Shown one piece after another: positions 38,406-61,965 of a stretch of DNA of 64,000 bases. Positions within the stretch are counted from its first letter, which is position 1, and the number at the start of each line of letters is the position of its first letter. This DNA is from Morchella semilibera (lineage: Eukaryota; Ascomycota; Pezizomycetes; Pezizales; Morchellaceae). The position numbers and the translations under genes were made by a program. The notes under the pieces were generated by a model. It was not told the DNA's origin, ran no database searches, and saw only the letters and a list, made by a program, of their open reading frames with translations. The DNA is taken from assembly GCA_009192285.1 (NCBI GenBank), contig WBVU01000017.1, positions 124,001 to 188,000 on the forward strand. The letters are read 5' to 3'.

Positions 38406-40205
38406 TTAAGTCTCCTTCTCGGCGGCGACTTCCTGGGTCTTGTGAGCGATATTGACTTTGAGGTTTCCTTGCTCAATATCCTTCTGGAGGGCGTCGAGTC
38501 GAGAGCCTTTGTTAGGTTGTTGACGCCAAACTGGAATGCCGGACTGTGAACGCTATTAGTTTCTGTTTTTCAGGGCCAGGAGTGTTAAAACTTACATCAA
38601 AGACATCATCCATCTCTTCCAAAGTCTTGCCCTTGGTCTCTGGGGCGGAAAGGAACATGTGAATAAGTGCACACCCATTGAAACAGCCAAAGATCATGTA
38701 CATCTTCCAGTTGATAGACCGAAGAAGTGGGGGAACAGCAAAGGCGAGACCACAGTTCCATGCCCAGTTCGATGCGGTTGAAAGTGATACGGCCTTTGAA
38801 CGGACCTTGTTGGGGAAGATCTCTGCCGGCATAGTCCACGAAACAGGACCCCACGTGATTGCGAAGGTCGCAACGAAGAGATAAGAGCATGCAACAACAG
38901 CACGGGATTGAGTCTCCTTGTCAACCATCTTCCAGGTGACGGCCTTTGTGGGGTCAGTCTCAGGCTCTCCAAATGCTCCCTGGATAGAACCAGAGATGAA
39001 CAGCCAGGCCATCATTCCGAACGAGCCAAGGAGAAGCGTGGGGCGACGACCCCAGCGGTCCATCCACATAATAGCAGGAATTGTCATGACAACGTTGATG
39101 ATATACTGGATGGATGAGGTGAGAAGAGGGTCTTTGATACCGGCTCCTTCCATAACGTATACGATGTAGTACATCATAATGTTCATTCCGCAAAGCTGAG
39201 ACCACATCTGAATTGACATCCCGAGAACAACACGCTTGAGAATACGGGGCTTGGTGAGTTCGGCATATGATGAGATTGCCTCTTCACGCTCAAAGCGGAT
39301 GACCTCCTCGATCTCTTGGTATTCAGCGAGGACCTTGGGATGGTTCAGATCACCGCCTCCGTGAACGTCGGCAAGAACACGGAGCGCATCCTCCCATCTA
39401 TCCTTATCGGCTAACCAACGTGGTGATTCCGGGAAGAAGAATAGACCGCCAACAAGAAGAGCTCCTGGAATAGCCTGGATACCCCATGGGATACGGAAAG
39501 CAGCACTAGGTTGATGAGGGTCCTCGGGACCGCCACCGTAGAAAGAGGCGCCGTACTGAATGAAGTATTGAATCAAGATACCCTAAGTAGCAGTTAGAAC
39601 AACCGCCGAGCGGAGGCCATCAGTAATAGTTGACTTACCCAGGTAATGGCCCATTGCTGAAGAGAAACCATACGACCACGAATCTCCTTGGGGGCGATTT
39701 CGGACTGGTAGACAGGTACGAGAGAGGAAGTGATACCGACGCAAAGACCAGCAATGACACGCCCAACAACGAGCATGCCAATATTCTGAGAAGCAGCCTG
39801 GATACTGAAATATCGTTAGTATGATTCCTAAGGATATCCCACGAGTATTACCTACATTGATCCAATGATCCATATGACACCACCAATCTGAATAGCCCAT
39901 TTACGGCCAACTTTGTCACCTAAGAAACCGGAGGCAAGGGCTCCAATTAGAGACCCAGCTGGCATAGCACAGGTAATTCCTCCTTGCTGTTCACATATTA
40001 TCAGCGCTACTCTCTCCTTCCCTTGGATCTCGTTATGAGCTATCAATCAACGTACTCTTGTATCCTGAGGATTGTCAAAGTAGTTTTTGTATGCATTGGT
40101 TCCGAGCACACCAGACATACTACTAATGTCGAAACCGAAAAGCCCACCCCCAATGGCCGCGAAGGCGCAAATGGCGTAAACGTTGTTCACCTTTGCAGAA
40201 ACCAT
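38406..40205 (-). CDS. Hexose-type sugar transporter (MFS, sugar porter family)
   Basis: Five minus-strand exons, 40205-40056, 39986-39856, 39804-39639, 39582-38596 and 38543-38406, give 523 residues with all phases consistent. Sugar-porter signatures are present: GGGLFGFDISSMSGV in helix 1, GDKVGRKW between helices 2 and 3, GRVIAGLCVGITSSLVPVYQSEIAPKEIRGR, PESPRWLADK, and the late AEIFPNKVR and PETKGKTLEEMD blocks. Twelve membrane helices are expected. These are proton-coupled or facilitative monosaccharide transporters of the plasma membrane. The FD in helix 1 (GFDISSMSG) is the common fungal form. The specific sugar cannot be read from sequence. The gene lies alone between long spacers. 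Confidence 0.93.
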
Positions 40206-46101: not shown

Positions 46102-47269
46102 TTAAATCTTACTTACCAGATCCTTCTTCATCTCAGACTGATTGACCCCATACACCTTGGCCGCGTTTCTCCACCACACATCCTCTCTCTCGTCCTCGCC
46201 CAACTTCAGTGCTGTAAACACCCTCTCCGTTATCCCGACCCACAAGCCCCACGCTCTTTCTTTCCCCCCATTTATTGTACACACTGGCCAATCGCTACCC
46301 CACAGTACCCTCTTTGTCCCGAAAATGTCAAGAGCGGCTTGAATCCATGGTTGTACATATTCCTGGATGGAGAGTAAATATTGTTCCCTATCTTGGCCGG
46401 TTTGTTGCACAAGCAGCTCTGAAGGAAGCTCCGAGAAGCACCCGGAGAGTTTGATATAGGTTTTCTCGTGATTCATAGAGGCGAGATGGGATTTCCATGT
46501 CAGGAAGAATTGATTGGTAGGAATATCTTTTGGGGCGACTCTCAAGTCAGGTTTCGCTAGGTGGTCTTGAAGCTCCCTGTTAGTGCACCATCACTATTCA
46601 GTCTTTGCATAAAAAAAAGGCCAACATACCAATAATTATTCTAACCTTCTGATCTTCCGGTACATCCTTGTGCGCCCTTTTTACCATTTCTGCCGCCTCC
46701 TCGAGCTGCCACAACCCGACGCTTCGGCAGTCTACCGTCAACTCAAACAGATAATGCTGCTGCCCTATCCACCGCAGCGAGTCCACAAATGCATCATCCA
46801 GCATAACCCCCTTGGGGCAGAACTGAACTAAGTACCTAAACCCCTTCAACAAATCCATCCTCGCACTCTCTGGGCCCGCAATCTCTTGTAGCCGCCGGAG
46901 GTAATTATACATCGCCGTACTCCCCCCGGGCACTGGACCCCATGGTACAATCCCCAGGACCTTATCTGCAACGGCCCTGTAGGCGGGATCTCTCCCTACA
47001 CCAGCGTTATAGACGAAGGCGAATTCTAAGAGAGGCCCTTCCCACCCCGGAGAGGTCATGGAGGATACATTTTTCTTGCGGTCAGTCTCGAGGAATATGA
47101 ATCCGAGGGGCTTGCGCGCGGTGGGGTTGTGGGTGTGCGTGGAGAGGTACTCGTGGATAGAGTGTTGACTGTTGAGAGGGTTATCGGGGGTCATCCAGGA
47201 GAGGTTTGGAATGTCTTCTGTGCGGAAGAGATGGATATGTGTGTCGATGAGATATTTCTGCGAAGACAT
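46102..47269 (-). CDS. Amidohydrolase-2 family protein, probable sugar-lactone hydrolase
   Basis: Two minus-strand exons, 47269-46630 and 46565-46102 (64-bp intron), give 367 residues. The metal-binding DTHIHL motif is at residues 9-14; KVRIIIDHLAKPDL is restored across the intron; IKLSGCFSEL and the final metal Asp block VLWGSDWPVC follow. This is the Amidohydro_2 TIM-barrel layout shared by L-fucono-1,5-lactonase and fungal L-rhamnono-gamma-lactonase (LRA2 type). The N-terminal LSWMTPDNPLNSQHSIHEYL is typical of the latter fungal group. The enzyme would open a sugar lactone to the aldonic acid. It is divergent from the MFS transporter and close to an aldose dehydrogenase-like gene, which fits such a role; other amidohydrolase-2 members are decarboxylases or hydratases, so the reaction is inferred. 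Confidence 0.8.
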
Positions 47270-49650
47270 TGCTGCAATTGTTGATGTAGGCTTTTTTGAT
47301 ATATTGATGATTCAACGCGGTGTAGCTTCTCGAGGAAGGCCTCGGTTGATCAAGTTGGCCACGAACAAAGTGGTTTCTTTTTCTTTGTCGGAAACATTCC
47401 GTCATATATCTAAGGTCTCCTGTCCCCCCACCTCAGTTGCATTGGGTATTTAGGGCTGGCTTTAGATTTATCCCTGGAGCTGGCCAAGATCTCCACATTT
47501 CAACGGGAAGGATAGAAATCCTGATTGGACAGCCGGTTAATTTGAAAGCTTGATTTACCGAGACCCAGAAAGGTCGAAATAGGGTTTATCGATGTCTTGC
47601 AGTAGCTTCAGGACGAGTTCAGATAGAATGTTCGAAACTCTCATATCGGGGTGTTATGTCTTTGATATCACTAATCGGGAATGTTTGATGTCAGTTGGTA
47701 CCCACTCTTATATACTTGGATACGGCTATTAGTAGGTTGCCAAGGCTGGTAGCTAAGTACATAACTTAGAGGGTATTGGTACTTGAGCGGTGCAGAGGGC
47801 TGAATATTGGATTGGCGCCCACCCGACCAATTGGTTGGAAGACACGCGAGAATCAGGTGCATTTGAGAGGCACGGGGAAAGAGAAGTGGTTATAGGTGGG
47901 CAGATATAACTGCCATAGAATACCAAGTCAAAGAGCTGCTTCGATATATATAAGAAGCTGAAGCAATCATACAATATTATGAACACAGGCCTAGGGGAAA
48001 CGCTACCATCCTAGTATAAGACCTGAACTACATGCATTACCCCATCTTAAGGAGATATGGTTGTACTGTTTAGTTTATATACATATTAGCAGATATCCAC
48101 GCGTATTTACATTATAAACGTATACCATATTTTATGGGACCAATGTACCTACTCGTTGTTTTAGTCATAGTAAAAAGTGGGTGAATGTGTGCTCTCCCTA
48201 ACGTTGCGCTGTGTGCCCTAGCTGGAGTTTTTAAGGTATCAATTGACCAAGGGGACACTATTCATAATTCTCTATGCATGTGCTTAGTAGTCTCCAGTAT
48301 CAACTGCTGAGCCAGAATCTTATCACCTCACAATCTTATCAGGAGGAATACCTGTGAAGGAAACTTCGGATACTAGAGGATACCTGGATTTGATAACTGT
48401 CCCGAAAAACCTTCTTATCTTCCAACCGTACACACTCTGCATTGAATAGTCGTGTCTCTATTAATTAAACCGGGTCTATCCCTGAACCGATATCTCGCTG
48501 CCAAATCTAGACTCTAGGATTAGATGACATTTTGCGGGGAAACGAATTTACGATTACTCTCCGCTCTATCAGAAACGGAGCTCCAACTTCCAAAGACCCC
48601 ATAGGGATGATCATCGACGAATTCCATGATTGTTTCCTTTAGTTAGGGCTCTAATTTCCCCTAACGTCTTGAACCCTTTCTCTGGGTTTTGAGGTATGTA
48701 TCTATCTACCTTTGCGAGGCTAAGAGTCGATACCTACTACCAAGGCCTATATATTGCTAGCTATCATGAGTATATTACATCTGCCAGATCCCCATTCCTG
48801 TAATATATCCGACGTCATATTCATCAGATAATTCCCTCTCCCCGCTCTGTCGGTTCCAGGCACACCTCCTTTCATCCTTAAACTCGGATGAGTAAATAAA
48901 CATCACGAACGCCAACATCTCGCTTACAATCCACCACCACTCCTTGATGATCCATACAATTTCAGGATCTCTCAATTCCTTTTCCACTCATGGCTGGCCA
49001 TCTTGCACGCCAGCTCCCCCTATGGACAGAGCGCGCAATGACCCTTCGCACACCGGAGTAATGACCACCGAGCCTTCCTCCCCGCATTAAATTTGTGGGG
49101 AAGCCAGTCACCGGGCCATTTGCTAGCTAGGCGAACAGGTGGGGGAGCCCCCGGGGTATGCCCCCCAGAATATCTCTTGTGCTTCTACCTGCCAGGAGGG
49201 GGGTGATCCCTGGGGGGGGGGGTGTCTCAAAATCGGATAAAGAGCGAGCAATCAAGAGAGACACGATTGGCGAGGGGCGGGGAGCAGTATTGTACTACTT
49301 TATTTTCGCACAGTAAATTATACGCGCGGGCGGTGGGTATTTGAGTGGTAGTGGGTGAGGTAGTACATATGATGCAGCTAGATACACTCAAATGAACGAC
49401 GCTACGTTACATGCCCACGGCTTGATACCTGATCGCAACTCCATGTACCCCCTAGATAAATTGCTTTTTAAACAAAAGCTGAGAGTTAGACACTTAGATC
49501 CCCCGGATTCAAGCGTTCCCGGGTTAGTAACAATTGCCGTGAAAGTTTGATAAGTTCACCCTTTTCCCCGGATTTTCTCTTTAAAGCTTTTCAAACAGCC
49601 CTCCTATCCCTTGGTTCGATCAGTCAGATTGCAGTAAATACCTTGATACC
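47270..49650. other. Divergent regulatory spacer of the putative sugar-oxidation cluster
   Basis: It lies between the lactonase-like gene (minus) and the transporter (plus) and contains both promoters. A G11 run is at 49212-49222. A short minus-strand frame at 48775-48987 with WIIKEWWW looks like a relic. No TACATGTA site was noticed. Confidence 0.5.
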
Positions 49651-51357
49651 ATGGCGAAATTCTTTCGAAAACGTAGTCTTAGAGCGCGAGATGATCAGGT
49701 TACCAACGCGTCGAATCTTACGCTCAGACAGTCAATACTTCCGTTATGTTTAGTCACGATTCTCTTTTTCCTCTGGGTATGTTCACCTACCCCCTATCAC
49801 CTGAGCTGAGATGTCAGGATTAACCAGAAATTTTGATTAGGGCTTTGCATATGGTTTATTAGATGTACTCAATAAGCATTTCCAGAACACCTTAGGGATT
49901 ACTCGATCTCGATCTTCAGGTCTTCAGGCTGCTTATTTTGGGTTTGTCATTCTGTCATCTCTTATATTGTTTGGGGGTTTTAACCTGATATTAACTTGTT
50001 TACAGCGCGTATCCAATTGCTTCATTGACATATGGAGGTTACTGTCTCCGAAAACTAGGCTACAAGGCCACCTTTATGCTTGGTTTGACATTGTATGGAG
50101 TTGGCGCGCTTCTGTTCTGGCCTGCAGCGCTGAAACGGTCCTTTGGTGTAAGGTGCCCTCCTAATTAAAGGATCCTTCCGGGGAGGATGGCTAATGTTAA
50201 ACATGAGATCTAGGGATTTTGCGGTGCCACCTTCATCATTGGTTCTGGGCTGGGTACTCTTGAATCTGCTGCAAATCCGTACCTTGCGGTATGCGGTCCA
50301 CCAAAGTACTCGGAGATGCGTCTCAATCTTGCACAGGGTGTCCAGGCGGTCGGTACAGTTGTGGGCCCCGTGTTGGCATCACAGGTCTTCTTTAAGAACG
50401 TGAAAGAGAGCTCCTTGGAGAGTGTTCAGTGGGTGTATCTTGGTATCGCAATTTTTGTGTTTTTTCTTGCGGGTATTTTCTATATCTCGACAATTCCTGA
50501 GATCACGGATGCCGATATGGAGCGACAGATGGAGGCCACTGGAGGCGTGTTTACGGAGGATGACGCAAAGCCAATCACAAAACACTACCAGTTATGGTGG
50601 GGAGCTTTCTCGCAGTTTTGTTATGTCGGCGCTCAAGGTAATAGTTCCCCTCCATGCATGCCTTTAACTAGTGTTAATTGTGGTGAATAGTCGGTATTGC
50701 GGGGTACTTTGTCAACTACGTGGTTGAAGTCCGGAAGGGTACCTCTTCAGCAGATGGAGCAAATTTCCTGGCTGGCGCACAAGGCTGCTTCGCGGTTGGA
50801 AGATTCTTGGGTGTGTTCTTAATGAAGTTCATCAACCCGCGTAAAGTCTTCCTTGTCTACTTTACCTGCGTTATTGCGTTTCAGGCATCGGCTATTGGGG
50901 CTACCGGGAATGCTGGAATGGGTATGTTTCTATGAAGCTTACTGTTAAGACTCACGCTAACAATTTTGCGCCAGCCTGCCTGATGCTCGTACTATTCTTC
51001 GAGTCAATTTGTTTCCCCACAATCTTCACTCTTGCCATCCGTGGTCTCGGAAAGCATACCAAGCTCGGTTCTACGGTCGTCGTTGGCTCTATTATTGGCG
51101 GCGCCGTTGTGCCCCCACTGTTGGCCGTCACTGCAGACAGATTTAACAATACGGGCACTGCTATGTTTGTGCCCTTGATTTTCTTCTGTGCTGCATATAC
51201 TTTCCCGCTAGGAGTCAACTTCCACGCGCCTACCAAGCGTCTGATGGATGGCTTCTTGAATAGTAAGGTTGGAATAGAGACTTCCAAGGAGGATGATATC
51301 GAGAAGGCAGATATAGAGAGAGTAGAGGATATTGAGATGCATAAAACGAAGGAGTAG
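49651..51357 (+). CDS. Fucose-permease-type MFS transporter (FHS family)
   Basis: Six exons, 49651-49776, 49841-49941, 50006-50147, 50214-50637, 50691-50921 and 50975-51357, give 468 residues with consistent phases. FLWGFAYGLLDVLNKHFQNTLGI in helix 1 is the hallmark of the L-fucose/glucose/galactose permease (FHS) group, as are GLQAAYFGAYPIASL, LESAANPYLAVCGPP, RLNLAQGVQAVGTVVGP and the late FFESICFPTIFTLAIRGLGKHTKLGS. Bacterial FucP is an L-fucose:proton symporter; many ascomycete homologues are labelled only as MFS or glucose/galactose transporters. The C-terminal tail is acidic and cytosolic. It stands 535 bp upstream of, and on the same strand as, an Ara2-type aldose dehydrogenase. Confidence 0.9.
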
Positions 51358-51891
51358 GGTGTATTTTGCTTTTTTTGTTTTGTTTTAGCAGCATTTGCTC
51401 TACGAGCTTTAACTATAGTTTATGAGACATATGAATCAAATGAGATATTAAACTCAGCAACCTCAGATATCTGTATGGGGACGTCCCATAAAGGACATAG
51501 GGTAGAACTGAGACTTTACAGGGCCTCTCTGCACTGCAGCTGTGATACATGCCCCCCTTAGAGCCGCCCGTTGCATTACGGTTATTAGGCCAATGATCGG
51601 GAACTGGAGCCCCGCTGCCAAGCGCTGGTACTACTGCTTTATATTCAGCCTGATCCTTACCCCTGCCAATGATACATGCACAGGTAAAACCTGCAGCGAC
51701 AGCTACTACCGTAGAATTAACCAAAAAGAAGGGAAGAATGAAAGAAATGCCGACTGAAAAGCTCAACGTCTTCTTCACCTTCACTTGGGTAGTTTCACAT
51801 ACATACCTCAAAGACTGAGCTCTCCAACTGCTCCTCATTCCAAGCCCAATTGCTCCCAATTACCCTAACAGAACAAACGTAATCCTGAACA
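51358..51891. other. Short spacer between the transporter and the aldose dehydrogenase-like gene
   Basis: It holds the transporter's 3' end and the promoter of the next gene. I see no further feature. Confidence 0.6.
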
Positions 51892-52920
51892 ATGACCACC
51901 ACCCCCCGCCCCAAGCTCTCTACCCTCCTCCCACCCGTGATCCTCGGCGGCGGAGTGTATAACACCCAAATGAACCCGGACCCCTCCCTCCTCCCCGTCC
52001 GCGCTCTCATTGCTCGCGCCTTCACCCTCGGTATAAACGCAATCGACACATCCCCCTACTATGGCCCGTCCGAGGTCCTCATTGGCGACGCCCTCAAGCA
52101 CTCGAACGCGCCTCGCGATTCCTATATCCTCATGACGAAAGCTGGGCGCATCGCCGAGCAGACATTTGACTACTCTCCCGCATGGATCCGGGCCAGCGTG
52201 CTGCGATCACTGCAGCGCCTGAATACGACATATCTCGACGTAGTATTTTGTCATGATACTGAGTTTGTAGCACCTGACGCTGTCGTCGAGGCCGTACGGA
52301 CGCTGTTCGCTCTTGTAGACGAGGGGAAGGTTCGATACGTGGGGATCTCGGGATATCCGCCACAGGTTCTTGCGGAGCTTGCGGTGATGGTGCGGCAGCG
52401 GTTGGGGAGGCCAGTAGATGTGGTGCAGAGCTACTGCCACTATAATCTGCAGAATGAAAGACTGAAGAAGTATCTACCAAGGCTACTGGGGGAGGGCGGC
52501 GTGGACGTGGTGCTGAATGCGTCGCCGCTGAGTATGAAGTTACTGTCAGGGAGCTATCCGGGTGATTTTCATCCAGCGCCGAAAGAGCTCCAGGAGAAGT
52601 GTTTAAAGGCGGAGAAGTGGTGTCGAGAGAGGGGCGAGTCGCTGGCGGGTGTGGCAATGAGATGGGTATTTAGGAATTGGGAGGGGGGTGTGATTTCCGG
52701 GGCGAGTTATGTGGAGGAGCTAGAGAGTAATTTGGAGGCGTTTAGGGAAGTAAGGAGTGAATTGGGGGGAATGCAGGTGGGGAAGGAGAGATTGGAGAGG
52801 TTGGAGGAGCTGTGGAAGGGTGTGAGGGAGATATTGGGGGAGTTTGTGGATTGGAGCTGGAGTAGTCCACCAGAGGGTTATGTTAAGTGGGGGGAGAAGG
52901 TGGCTGAGAGTAAACTATAG
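51892..52920 (+). CDS. ARA2-like: Aldo/keto reductase, D-arabinose / L-galactose 1-dehydrogenase (Ara2) type
   Basis: A single exon of 342 residues. The catalytic tetrad of the AKR superfamily is visible: Asp52 and Tyr57 in IDTSPYYGPSE, Lys83 in YILMTKAGRI and His121 in DVVFCHDTEF. The start LPPVILGGGVYNTQ and the DYSPAWIRASVLRSLQRLNT block are those of the NAD-dependent Ara2/L-galactose dehydrogenase group, which oxidises D-arabinose, L-galactose or L-fucose at C1 to the lactone. Yeast Ara2 acts in D-erythroascorbate synthesis. Strong G/C-ending codon bias is present in the first half. Its position behind a fucose-permease-type transporter and near a lactonase-like gene suggests a catabolic role here. 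Confidence 0.85.
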   Translation: MTTTPRPKLSTLLPPVILGGGVYNTQMNPDPSLLPVRALIARAFTLGINAIDTSPYYGPSEVLIGDALKHSNAPRDSYILMTKAGRIAEQTFDYSPAWIRASVLRSLQRLNTTYLDVVFCHDTEFVAPDAVVEAVRTLFALVDEGKVRYVGISGYPPQVLAELAVMVRQRLGRPVDVVQSYCHYNLQNERLKKYLPRLLGEGGVDVVLNASPLSMKLLSGSYPGDFHPAPKELQEKCLKAEKWCRERGESLAGVAMRWVFRNWEGGVISGASYVEELESNLEAFREVRSELGGMQVGKERLERLEELWKGVREILGEFVDWSWSSPPEGYVKWGEKVAESKL

Positions 52921-55998: not shown

Positions 55999-57142
55999 AT
56001 GGCTTCTAAACTCACGATAGCATCAACCGTGCGCCTGGCTTCAGGCTATGAAATGCCGCGTCTAGGTCTCGGTGTATGTGCTCTACCCCGCACTAGGGAG
56101 TAAGCTCAATTGAATACTGATACCTAATAGGTCTATCAAACGTAAGGAGTATTAATTGCATAGCTATATGCATATATATATATGATTCTCTAACTAATGC
56201 TATACCCCAGGCCAGCTGATAAATGTGAAGCTCTCGTTCTACATGCTTTCTCAAAGGGCTACCGACACGTAACACCCCCCACAGGCCTCCCGCGGTAGAG
56301 CCCACTAACAAAACACCTTAGATCGACTCCGCCACCGCCTATCGCAACGAGCGGCCCTGTGCCACCGCAATTGCTGCATCACCTCTCTCCCGCTCTGAGG
56401 TCTTTTTCACGACGAAGCTGCCGCCGCGGCTCCGTGGGTCTGAATACTATCCTTTATATTTTGAAACATCGAATAGGCTGACTTAAGCTAGATACGAGGC
56501 AACAAAGGAGTCACTTGACAATGTCATCAAGTCTAACCCTGAGCTCGAGGGCTACATCGACCTTTACCTGATTCATGCCCCTTTCGGTGGCCGCACTGCA
56601 CGCCTTGGCGAATGGAAAGCCATGGTGGAAGCACATAAAGAGGGGAAAGTTCGCTCTCTAGGTGTATCAAACTACTCTGTGGAGCATCTCAATGAGTTAT
56701 GGAAGTATATTCATGAAGAGGGTGGTGGTGGTGTCCTGAGTGTGGGACAGTGGGAGGTTACGCCGTGGCTGGGGAGGAAGGACATAAAAAAATGGTGTGA
56801 AGAGAAGGGAGTAGTGGTGCAGGCTTATTCACCGTTGGTAAGGGCTACAAGGTTTGGGGAGCCAATATTAAAGAGTTTAGCCCACAAATATGGGGTGACA
56901 CCAGCGCAGATACTGGTAAGATGGAGTTTGCAGATGGTAAATTGTTCCTCTCCATCGGTGTCTTGCTCTGAGGTGTTAATATATGACAGGGGCTTGTACC
57001 TCTCCCCAAGTCGGTGCATCATGAGAGGATTTCGGAAAATGCAGATGTTTACGGGTTCGAAATGTCCAAGCAGGACGTGAAAGGATTGGAGACCGACGAG
57101 TATAGTCCATGTACTTGGGATCCCACAAAGGAGCCTTTGTAA
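55999..57142 (+). CDS. Aldo/keto reductase (AKR), fungal glycerol/xylose reductase-like
   Basis: Five exons, 55999-56099, 56211-56268, 56322-56437, 56492-56936 and 56990-57142, give 290 residues with every phase consistent. The catalytic tetrad is Asp55 and Tyr60 in IDSATAYRNE, Lys85 in FFTTKLPPR and His120 in LYLIHAPFGG. Nicotinamide-binding and late motifs follow: [41 protein letters not shown]. The family reduces aldehydes and ketones with NADPH. The reading is unbroken after splicing, although without splicing only a 152-codon middle part is visible. It belongs to a different AKR branch from the Ara2-type gene 3 kb upstream; I see no reason to link the two functionally. Confidence 0.88.
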
Positions 57143-59954: not shown

Positions 59955-61965
59955 TTAGTTGGGGCAAAGACGGCCCTCCAAATCTAAAGCCCACCTCTCA
60001 CTACCGACTGCAGTGGCAGCATAAAATACACCCTTGGGGTCGAACCTCTGCTTCAACTGGTACAAACGGTCGTAGTTAGAGCCATAGAAAGACTGTTGGA
60101 AGTCTGGCTCCTGGATATCAGACTCTCCGAGGTAAGCCCCAGAACCGGGGGTGACATCTCTCCATTTCTGCATCTGCACATATGTGAGGTAATCCCTCTT
60201 CGCCTGGATTTCGTCCGGGGTTGCACTTGCGTCCCAGGAGGCGGCACCAATGGCGTGCAAAACAGACTGTCTCCATGCAGGGTTGACAGAGTTGTCGGGT
60301 TCACCACCACTGGGGAACTCGTTCTTCATATTGAATCCAAGAAGCATTCCCTGCTCCTCAATAACAGACTGGATAACCGCGAATGTCTTGTCGAAAGTCG
60401 CATCGTCCGCCCAGTTCGCACGTGGGAAGAGTCGAGAGGCAGTCTGCACTGTGGTATAACCAACGAGCTCCTTGGGGAAAGTAGCTTGCCATGCGTCGAA
60501 GAATGACTCGTGCTCGGTGATCACGGGTGTGTAGGTAATGTTCAATGAGTCGAGTTTATTGAAGAGAGGCTGAAGGAGTGTTGTGACCTCTTCAGTGTTC
60601 AAATTGGGAGCAAAGAAGGGCGCCATGTTGAAGGTTCCGGTAAAGATACTGAAGTATGAGTATGTACCCGCGTCGGCGTTAGTGATAAAGGTCTTGAAGT
60701 ACGTCTTGACAGCGTCCCAGTATGCATCTAGGTTGGTAGAGGTGAAGCTAAATGTGGCAGTAGTAACTGGGATATCAGGATACGCTTTGACAATGACTGA
60801 GGTGACGATTCCAAAGGTAGATCCGCCACCTCCACGAAGGGCCCAGAAGAGATCTGAATTTTTAGCTGCATTCGCGGTTACGAAGCGGCCGTCGCCGGTC
60901 ACAACCTCGTATTCGAGGACATGGTCGGCTCCCATTCCATAGATACTAGACAGGGGCGAGTGGCCACCCCCGGCGAGGTAGCCTCCAGCATATCCGACAG
61001 TCATACCCTCTCCACCAACGACGACAAGGCCTTTGGCCTTAGCCGCGGCATAGACATCACGGCCCTGGACACCAGCCCCGACTTTAAATGCAGGGCCGGA
61101 CCAGCCAAGACGGCCGAAATTGGGGATGTGCTTGATATCGTCGAAGAAATGGGTCCAGACACTGATGGAGTTTGCACCAGATGACTTTCCGGAGAAATCG
61201 TGACCTGCGCGGAGGTTAGTATACATATAGGCCAAAGAAATTACTTAGGTGGTGGGAAATTACCAGTGTTCTTGACAACGAGTCTGACCTTGTAGTTTCT
61301 AGCAAGGTTGACCGCTACCTGGATGTCGAAGACGGTCCTGGCCCTGACAACGTAATTTGGGTATCCTCCAAGGGTACAAGACCCAGTGGGGTCGGTGGTA
61401 GGCATGCAAGTAGCACCCTGGTAGAAAGGAGACATGATCGAGGTAGGATCTTGATCACTAAAATCGTATAAGATTTAGAACTATAACATCAATTGGACTA
61501 AATTAAGTAGTAAACTTACTGCAAATCCGAATCGTTCCAGCTGGCAGTGATTTCAGCACATCTGGTGGCATTGTAGTACTCCCCATCATAGCAAGGCGCC
61601 GCCAAAGGAACAGTCGGGATGAGTTGCTTTCCGGTCAGGAAGTTAACAATGCCCCAGATCTTTGAAGAGGGCCAATCCGAGTCACTCGGTATGACTTTGC
61701 ACACGAGATTGGATACCGAGCGCTTTTGAGAAACATCTTGGGTATAGACATCATCGTCGAACGAGATCTCGGGGTACTCGCTGACATCGTCATCGGTCAA
61801 TGTTGTAACCTCGTACGGGAACAGCTCAGTTGTAGCAGTACTGCTAGCTGCGGCATCGGTACTCGAGGACTCAGGCGCCGGAATTGCAAGCGCTCCGGAA
61901 AGGAAAAGTGCCAATGCGGCAAGTTTCCAGCTTCCTGTACGTTGGGTAGAAACAATGTTTGGCAT
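59955..61965 (-). CDS. Secreted FAD-linked oxidoreductase, berberine-bridge-enzyme type
   Basis: Three minus-strand exons, 61965-61520, 61457-61264 and 61204-59955 (introns 62 and 59 bp), give 629 residues. A signal peptide ([17 protein letters not shown]) precedes an acidic linker. The FAD_binding_4 domain starts around residue 170 ([22 protein letters not shown]) and contains [13 protein letters not shown], whose His (about 215, split across the second intron) is the expected 8-alpha-histidyl FAD anchor. [21 protein letters not shown] follows; the Cys that gives bicovalent FAD in some BBE-like enzymes is not there. The C-terminal BBE motif is [20 protein letters not shown]. Such oxidases act on sugars, alkaloids or polyketide intermediates. 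An in-frame ATG at about 62049 is not credible because it would bury the signal peptide. Confidence 0.9.

Follow-up and report, generated by a model that had tools for sequence, protein, structure and literature searches.

What do three adjacent genes of a morel, encoding an amidohydrolase, a transporter and an aldo-keto reductase (AKR), do together, and on which sugar? The genes, here called A, B and C, lie in a 64,000-bp window of the Morchella semilibera genome (G000:C14:124001-188000; the window is this whole stretch, gene positions below count from its first base, the assembly has 56.8 Mb in 23 contigs, and the genes are fungal in character). We propose that the trio is probably a fungal oxidative entry module for aldoses of L-galacto configuration, with L-fucose as the likeliest physiological substrate and L-galactose as a close second. 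B would import the sugar with protons, C would oxidise it at C1 to the lactone with NAD(P)+, and A would hydrolyse the lactone to L-fuconate or L-galactonate. An unlinked enzyme of the L-fuconate/L-galactonate dehydratase type on contig C21 may then dehydrate the aldonate, and an unlinked DHDPS-family aldolase, with candidates on C3, could release pyruvate and L-lactaldehyde or L-glyceraldehyde. Substrate, direction, cofactor and co-regulation of the trio are what we infer. An earlier sequence-only reading had suggested the same logic of uptake, C1 oxidation and lactone opening, and family placement supports it.

L-fucose caps many glycans, and the T. reesei route described in 2025 does not settle the lactone step. 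In that fungus the short-chain dehydrogenase/reductase (SDR) FDH1 oxidises L-fucose, LGD1 and LGA1, shared with D-galacturonate catabolism, are proposed to follow, and the lactone is allowed to open either spontaneously or by an enzyme (PMC12370193). A 2023 survey reports that homologues of neither L-fucose dehydrogenase nor L-fuconolactonase turned up in fungi (PMC10481521), and the mammalian L-fuconolactonase is described as still without a gene (PMC13406643). If our proposal is true, the locus names a lactone-opening gene and A fills a step reported as missing from fungi and as lacking a gene in mammals; going by the open-licence literature in PubMed Central, no eukaryotic L-fuconolactonase would have been tied to a gene before A. 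Fungi would then have arrived at the first oxidation at least two times, with an SDR and with an AKR, and the locus would suggest that the dehydratase and aldolase of the pectin pathway are a common sink for L-galacto-configured sugars. That we see here a second, independently assembled fungal system for L-fucose/L-galactose oxidation, with an AKR from an Ara2 duplication and a dedicated lactonase feeding the dehydratase and aldolase of D-galacturonate catabolism, we put forward tentatively, at slightly less than even chances. The combination of a permease of the fucose:H+ symporter (FHS) family with an AKR, which the sequence-only reading took for new, is less novel than was claimed, given the L-rhamnose transporter RhtA of A. 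niger (PMC5161314), FHS permeases near orthologues of the regulator FUR1 (PMC12370193) and a bacterial AKR cluster (PMC6336799).

Three genes and their families

All three genes are intact, with no internal stops after intron removal. Gene A (46102..47269, minus strand, 367 aa), a candidate L-fucono/L-galactono-lactonase, starts with an ATG at 47269 and has two exons (47269-46630 and 46565-46102) around a single 64-bp GT..AG intron (46629-46566). Gene B (49651..51357, plus strand, 468 aa) has six exons (49651-49776, 49841-49941, 50006-50147, 50214-50637, 50691-50921 and 50975-51357) separated by five GT..AG introns of 53-66 bp, while gene C (51892..52920, plus strand, 342 aa) is a single exon and a candidate L-fucose/L-galactose (D-arabinose) 1-dehydrogenase. 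A and B diverge from a spacer of 2,381 bp (47270..49650) in which every stop-to-stop frame is shorter than 110 aa, and C follows B on the same strand after 534 bp (51358..51891). Coordinates, splicing and Pfam matches agree with the arrangement described before, in which an amidohydrolase and a fucose-permease-type gene are divergent and an Ara2-type AKR lies downstream of the permease. The trio could also be three unrelated genes that are neighbours by accident, as the 2.4-kb spacer and the separate upstream region of C would allow. We consider this very unlikely: counting two loci like A, four like B (the identical copies on C9 and C10 taken as one) and two close to C, the chance of finding one match to each inside 7 kb is about 1e-6, a rough and post hoc figure for families picked afterwards and based on paralogue counts that are lower bounds, and bacteria from four phyla have clusters that bring these families together.

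The product of A is a COG3618/Amidohydro_2 protein (Pfam PF04909, 80.7 bits, cut-off 26.4). At E<=0.01 the PDB offers a single match, 4dlf (E 5.8e-8), an entry titled Amidohydrolase 2, which we take to be the L-fuconolactonase of B. multivorans (Hobbs 2013). The equivalog model for L-fucono-1,5-lactonase (NF052480) is the sole NCBIfam match at E<=1e-5, with a score of 71.6 bits that stays below the cut-off, and A is thus best described as related in sequence to L-fucono-1,5-lactonase, not as a certified member. A placement among decarboxylases, named by the sequence-only reading as an outcome that would speak against its own proposal, was not seen; A falls with L-fuconolactonase. Residues H11, H13, H215 and D305, presumably the HxH, the late His and the Asp of the amidohydrolase fold, are common to A and a paralogue on C19. 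This paralogue, the only one in the genome at E<=0.001, is 45% and 42% identical to A across two exons and has its intron at the same place and in the same phase; bacterial relatives of A are 22-30% identical among the matches listed. Horizontal transfer of A from bacteria was considered and is not favoured, the C19 paralogue with its 42-45% identity and shared intron position being the nearest relative seen.

By its sequence, B belongs to the FHS family. Pfam places it in MFS_1 (65.3 bits, above cut-off), and its PDB relative is FucP (3o7q, E 8.3e-65), aligned in two stretches that cover residues 21-186 and 200-428 of the 438-residue chain. D46 and E135 of FucP, which we take to be residues with a functional role, are conserved in the alignment. 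The score with the fucP equivalog model TIGR00885 (246 bits) is below its cut-off of 280.4 bits. Paralogues of B are found on C6 (60% and 47% identical over the two longest stretches), on C1 and on C9/C10. In the C6 paralogue (G000:C6:121210-122637) the reading frame shifts inside the gene at a point without an intron-like boundary; this is a frameshift or an assembly error.

C can be placed among the AKRs of L-galactose dehydrogenase/Ara2 type, judging by its profile and structure matches. It is recognised by Pfam as Aldo_ket_red (PF00248, 173.7 bits, above cut-off), and its motif residues D52, Y57, K83 and H121 stand at the positions of what we assume to be the AKR catalytic tetrad. The best PDB match is the AKR 8k1i (E 5.3e-55), and ranks 2-6 are all L-galactose dehydrogenases (7ezi with E 3.5e-51, then 8scc, 7smi, 9w6y and 7lh6, with E values up to 1e-35). 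One close paralogue lies on C11 (two stretches, with 55% and 57% identity), and weaker, generic AKR matches of 30-31% occur at three places.

An Ara2-type enzyme also brings D-arabinose into view. C might be a second Ara2-type D-arabinose dehydrogenase that serves D-arabinose catabolism or D-erythroascorbate synthesis, and this would suit its family, the finding that a clustered bacterial AKR of COG0667 accepts D-arabinose, L-fucose and L-galactose (PMC6336799), and the putative D-arabinose dehydrogenase next to the FUR1 orthologue of A. niger (PMC12370193). However, the C11 gene is of the same type, can serve erythroascorbate and is the likelier housekeeping Ara2. In addition, erythroascorbate synthesis needs the lactone intact, and there would be no place in it for a lactonase and a permease. 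We regard a function of this kind as improbable.

Settings of the relatives in bacteria

The genes that surround bacterial relatives of A, B and C bear on the substrate. Relatives were collected by tblastn against a plasmid collection (C at E<=1e-20, A at E<=1e-12, B at E<=1e-40). For C, four plasmid records were found and the neighbourhoods of all four were examined. The Paenibacillus locus holds an amidohydrolase, the AKR and a zinc alcohol dehydrogenase, followed by sugar ABC transporter genes. In Acidisarcina a zinc alcohol dehydrogenase, fucP, a LacI gene and the AKR are accompanied by a tagaturonate epimerase, and the Catenovulum locus combines a mannitol dehydrogenase, a zinc alcohol dehydrogenase, an amidohydrolase, the AKR, a GH2 gene, a member of the altronate dehydratase family and a mutarotase. 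In B. finegoldii L136 (NZ_OY725933.1, 2402-7839), on a plasmid-labelled record that also contains a glycine tRNA ligase gene, we observed a compact cluster of LacI, AKR, amidohydrolase, fucP and zinc alcohol dehydrogenase genes that is likely devoted to L-galactose catabolism. Thus fucP is close to the AKR in Acidisarcina and B. finegoldii, an amidohydrolase adjoins it in Paenibacillus, Catenovulum and B. finegoldii, and a zinc alcohol dehydrogenase is near it in 4/4 loci. The constant zinc alcohol dehydrogenase, together with the tagaturonate and altronate enzymes of two loci, steers the reading of C towards L-galactose or the corresponding 6-deoxy sugar.

The relatives of A have other neighbours. 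Four plasmid records were recovered (three from Duffyella, one from Rahnella); the matches in three of them lie in operons of L-fuconate dehydratase, amidohydrolase, SDR, mutarotase and fucP genes, and in the fourth the matches to A and to fucP are about 1.3 kb apart. Among 323 records with weaker matches (E<=0.01), three more neighbourhoods were examined: two Rhizobium loci hold a fuconate dehydratase and an oxidoreductase, and a Martelella locus has a gene of the mandelate racemase family and a mutarotase. B matches 37 records, and the first 21 of the 30 matches listed are annotated as fucose transporters; of the four neighbourhoods examined, two from Pantoea are L-fucose operons of the same type as those of A, while those from Hymenobacter and Parabacteroides lack such an operon. 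From these settings A seems to point to L-fucose, and B would fit either L-fucose or L-galactose.

These plasmid loci resemble the morel trio in different parts. The L-fucose operons of Duffyella, Rahnella and Pantoea, with a lactonase of the 4dlf type, share with it the union of COG3618 lactonase and FucP, but they use SDRs and carry L-fuconate dehydratase and a FAH-family gene for the later steps. The clusters of AKR, amidohydrolase, fucP and zinc alcohol dehydrogenase, as in B. finegoldii L136, unite an AKR of the C type with an amidohydrolase and FucP, but they continue via the zinc alcohol dehydrogenase.

Within the proposed module, L-galactose is the branch that comes next to L-fucose. 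If it were the physiological substrate, C would make L-galactono-lactone, A would open it, and L-galactonate would enter the D-galacturonate pathway via L-galactonate dehydratase. The five L-galactose dehydrogenases among the PDB matches of C and the zinc alcohol dehydrogenase, tagaturonate epimerase (Acidisarcina), mannitol dehydrogenase and altronate dehydratase (Catenovulum) in its plasmid settings are in line with this. Such a layout resembles bacterial L-galactose catabolism with BVU_0219 and BVU_0222, the L-galactose and L-galactonate dehydrogenases (PMC12632266), and L-galactonate is a native fungal intermediate (PMC11219438). On the other side stand the four best plasmid relatives of A with their L-fuconate dehydratase operons or nearby fucP. 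Free L-galactose is moreover rarer than L-fucose in plant matter. L-galactose as the main substrate is therefore a serious but rather unlikely branch of the proposal. With respect to the substrate range named by the sequence-only reading, L-galactose now weighs more than D-arabinose on account of the C-like bacterial contexts, and L-rhamnose becomes unlikely in view of a separate cluster with its own SDR on C20.

Downstream enzymes and the L-rhamnose alternative

Neither a sugar-acid dehydratase nor a KDG-type aldolase had been seen in the window before, and a search of other contigs had been recommended. Profile searches of the genome's contigs bear out this absence for the two families PF13378 and PF00701, which have no member on C14, and both are present elsewhere, unlinked to the trio, with at least four PF13378 sugar-acid dehydratases and at least four PF00701 genes genome-wide. 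A hand-joined piece of the C21 dehydratase scores 321.7 bits with ENOSF1 (4a35) and 276 bits with the L-fuconate dehydratase 2hxt, and two DHDPS-family genes on C3 are candidates for an LGA1-type aldolase. Since the later steps are common to D-galacturonate catabolism in T. reesei, this would explain a cluster without dehydratase and aldolase; and since the L-galactonate dehydratase type can take both L-galactonate and L-fuconate, the trio, the resident dehydratase and the aldolase would make up a complete pathway for either sugar. GaaB is cited as tenfold more active on L-fuconate, and for Fusarium and Metarhizium the FUR1 orthologues are predicted to have L-fucose permeases of the FHS type next to them (PMC12370193). 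The locus thus resembles the FUR1/FDH1 system of T. reesei in its non-phosphorylative L-fucose route, its fucose-type permease, an LGD1-type dehydratase and a DHDPS-family aldolase outside the cluster and GH95-type fucosidase domains in the genome (PF14498, at two places). It differs in having an AKR in place of the SDR FDH1 and a lactonase inside the cluster (PMC12370193).

Two further dehydratases, at C20:4.14 Mb and C19:1.30 Mb, are D-galactonate dehydratases judging by eye only. The one on C20 adjoins a DHDPS-family aldolase (G000:C20:4144874-4147245), likely a D-galactonate catabolic pair.

The fourth dehydratase bears on L-rhamnose. Situated at C20:1.78 Mb (PF13378), it matches the rhamnonate dehydratase 3fxg, presumably a Gibberella protein, with 437 bits, and it is followed by an SDR (best PDB match 7b81, titled only SDR, 213 bits) and then a DHDPS-family aldolase. 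By context this group (C20:1778345-1784400) appears to be an ordinary L-rhamnose cluster, and its presence, SDR included, makes L-rhamnose an unlikely substrate of the trio. The trio has in common with the fungal LRA clusters the sequence of dehydrogenase and lactonase, then dehydratase and aldolase, but LRA clusters have an SDR and a linked dehydratase; no PF13378 gene is present on C14, and the LRA-type cluster of this genome is separate on C20. It could still be argued that A is a displaced L-rhamnono-gamma-lactonase (LRA2) and B an RhtA-type transporter, so that the locus takes part in L-rhamnose catabolism. The C20 cluster indeed contains no COG3618 gene, A-like matches being confined to C14 and C19; lraB of A. 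nidulans sits apart from lraA and lraC, and two COG3618 genes were found in Pseudomonas rhamnose clusters. RhtA is, like B, a fungal FHS protein, but it appears to be specific for L-rhamnose and adjoins a GH78 gene (PMC5161314). GH78 occurs here at two places, C23 and C11, none of them on C14, and near neither B nor its C6 paralogue; as a tie-breaker for an RhtA-like FHS gene it failed. The C19 paralogue of A is free to be LRA2, and the family of C is not that of the rhamnose dehydrogenases. Moreover, A scores 81.6 bits with the lactonases of the two L-fucose operons compared, which share 47% identity with 4dlf over a 187-residue piece of it, and 40-42 bits with the two COG3618 proteins of Pseudomonas rhamnose clusters (L088, L109); it has the H..KP motif and GSDWPVC as in 4dlf, where the Pseudomonas proteins have HLPNA and GSDWPNS. 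A role in L-rhamnose catabolism is accordingly a poor candidate, in our judgement hardly to be expected.

Several observations weigh against an entry module for L-fucose or L-galactose. A misses the NF052480 cut-off widely (71.6 versus 400 bits), and the C19 paralogue scores 67.6 bits with the same model, so alike that sequence alone cannot say which of the two is the fucono- and which the rhamnono-lactonase; a split of both types by sequence was tried and failed on these scores, and the plasmid contexts were more useful. A also matches COG3618 proteins of Aureimonas (73.6 bits) and Qingshengfaniella (69.3 bits), which are not in plain fucose-operon settings; of the proteins compared, the one from Aureimonas, whose setting comprises sugar ABC, SDR and mannitol dehydrogenase genes, gives the C19 paralogue its best score. 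Between A and the amidohydrolase of B. finegoldii there is no match at E<=1e-3. In a scan of genome contigs for COG3618 candidates, picked by the pattern ID[TS]HIHLF (77 loci), an FHS gene was found in 0/77 of the available flanks, an AKR match in 2/77 and a FucD-type match in 1/77, while rhamnonate-dehydratase-type genes were the best match in 13/77 and strong in three (L088, L089 and L109, two with an SDR); the HLP-motif sub-type made up 63/77 of the candidate frames, a dominance due to the pattern, which selected for HLP. B has its own competitor in the C6 paralogue, 60% identical, which could be the fucose permease instead, and membership in the FHS family alone does not mean fucose, as RhtA illustrates: in its growth assay, uptake of L-fucose was not apparent (PMC5161314). 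Searches of the genome found neither a GH29 fucosidase nor an RbsD/FucU mutarotase. A. niger has GaaB and a FUR1 orthologue and is yet said not to use L-fucose (PMC12370193), so that downstream enzymes alone are no proof of the route. To the same side belong the regulatory differences from T. reesei: FUR1 binds CCGACGG (PMC12370193), and the two spacers contain no exact copy (0.27 expected from window density); no FUR1-type regulator was found nearby, and a search of 264 kb of C14 that misses motifs split by introns gave one plausible Zn2Cys6 motif, about 83 kb away.

Regulatory motifs and neighbouring genes

Other motifs in the two spacers occur at varying frequency. The FUR1 core with one mismatch is present four times (108 in the window, about 4.9 expected in the spacers), the XYR1 motif GGCTAA once (0.73 expected), the GaaR motif not at all (3.15 expected) and the CreA-type motif SYGGRG 21 times (14.25 expected). 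CGG-N11-CCG occurs once per spacer (49054 and 51598) and is the only one of 22 spacings present in both, a weak sign that we did not use as evidence. Matches to the DNA-binding domain of the XlnR type were found on C1, C3, C5, C11 and C19 only.

Further genes of the window may handle sugars. A Sugar_tr transporter (PF00083, 253 bits) lies on the minus strand at 38518-39582, at a distance of 6.5 kb from where gene A ends, and a second AKR piece at 56487-57077 (PF00248, 70.9 bits), which the search with C did not retrieve, might, speculatively, reduce the aldehyde product. An oxidase with FAD_binding_4 and BBE domains, a family that includes sugar C1 oxidases, is encoded on the minus strand at 59958-61244, 7 kb from gene C. 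At 1077-1961 the window holds a GDSL esterase with a fungal cellulose-binding module, which in its sequence is reminiscent of rhamnogalacturonan acetylesterase. Concerning the assembly, the contigs C9 (2,071,371 bp) and C10 (2,071,177 bp), which carry the identical copies of the B paralogue, are base-identical in 2/2 locus pairs compared (3,264 and 3,366 bp) at nearly the same coordinates; this suggests a chromosome present in two copies, or a contig duplicated in the assembly.

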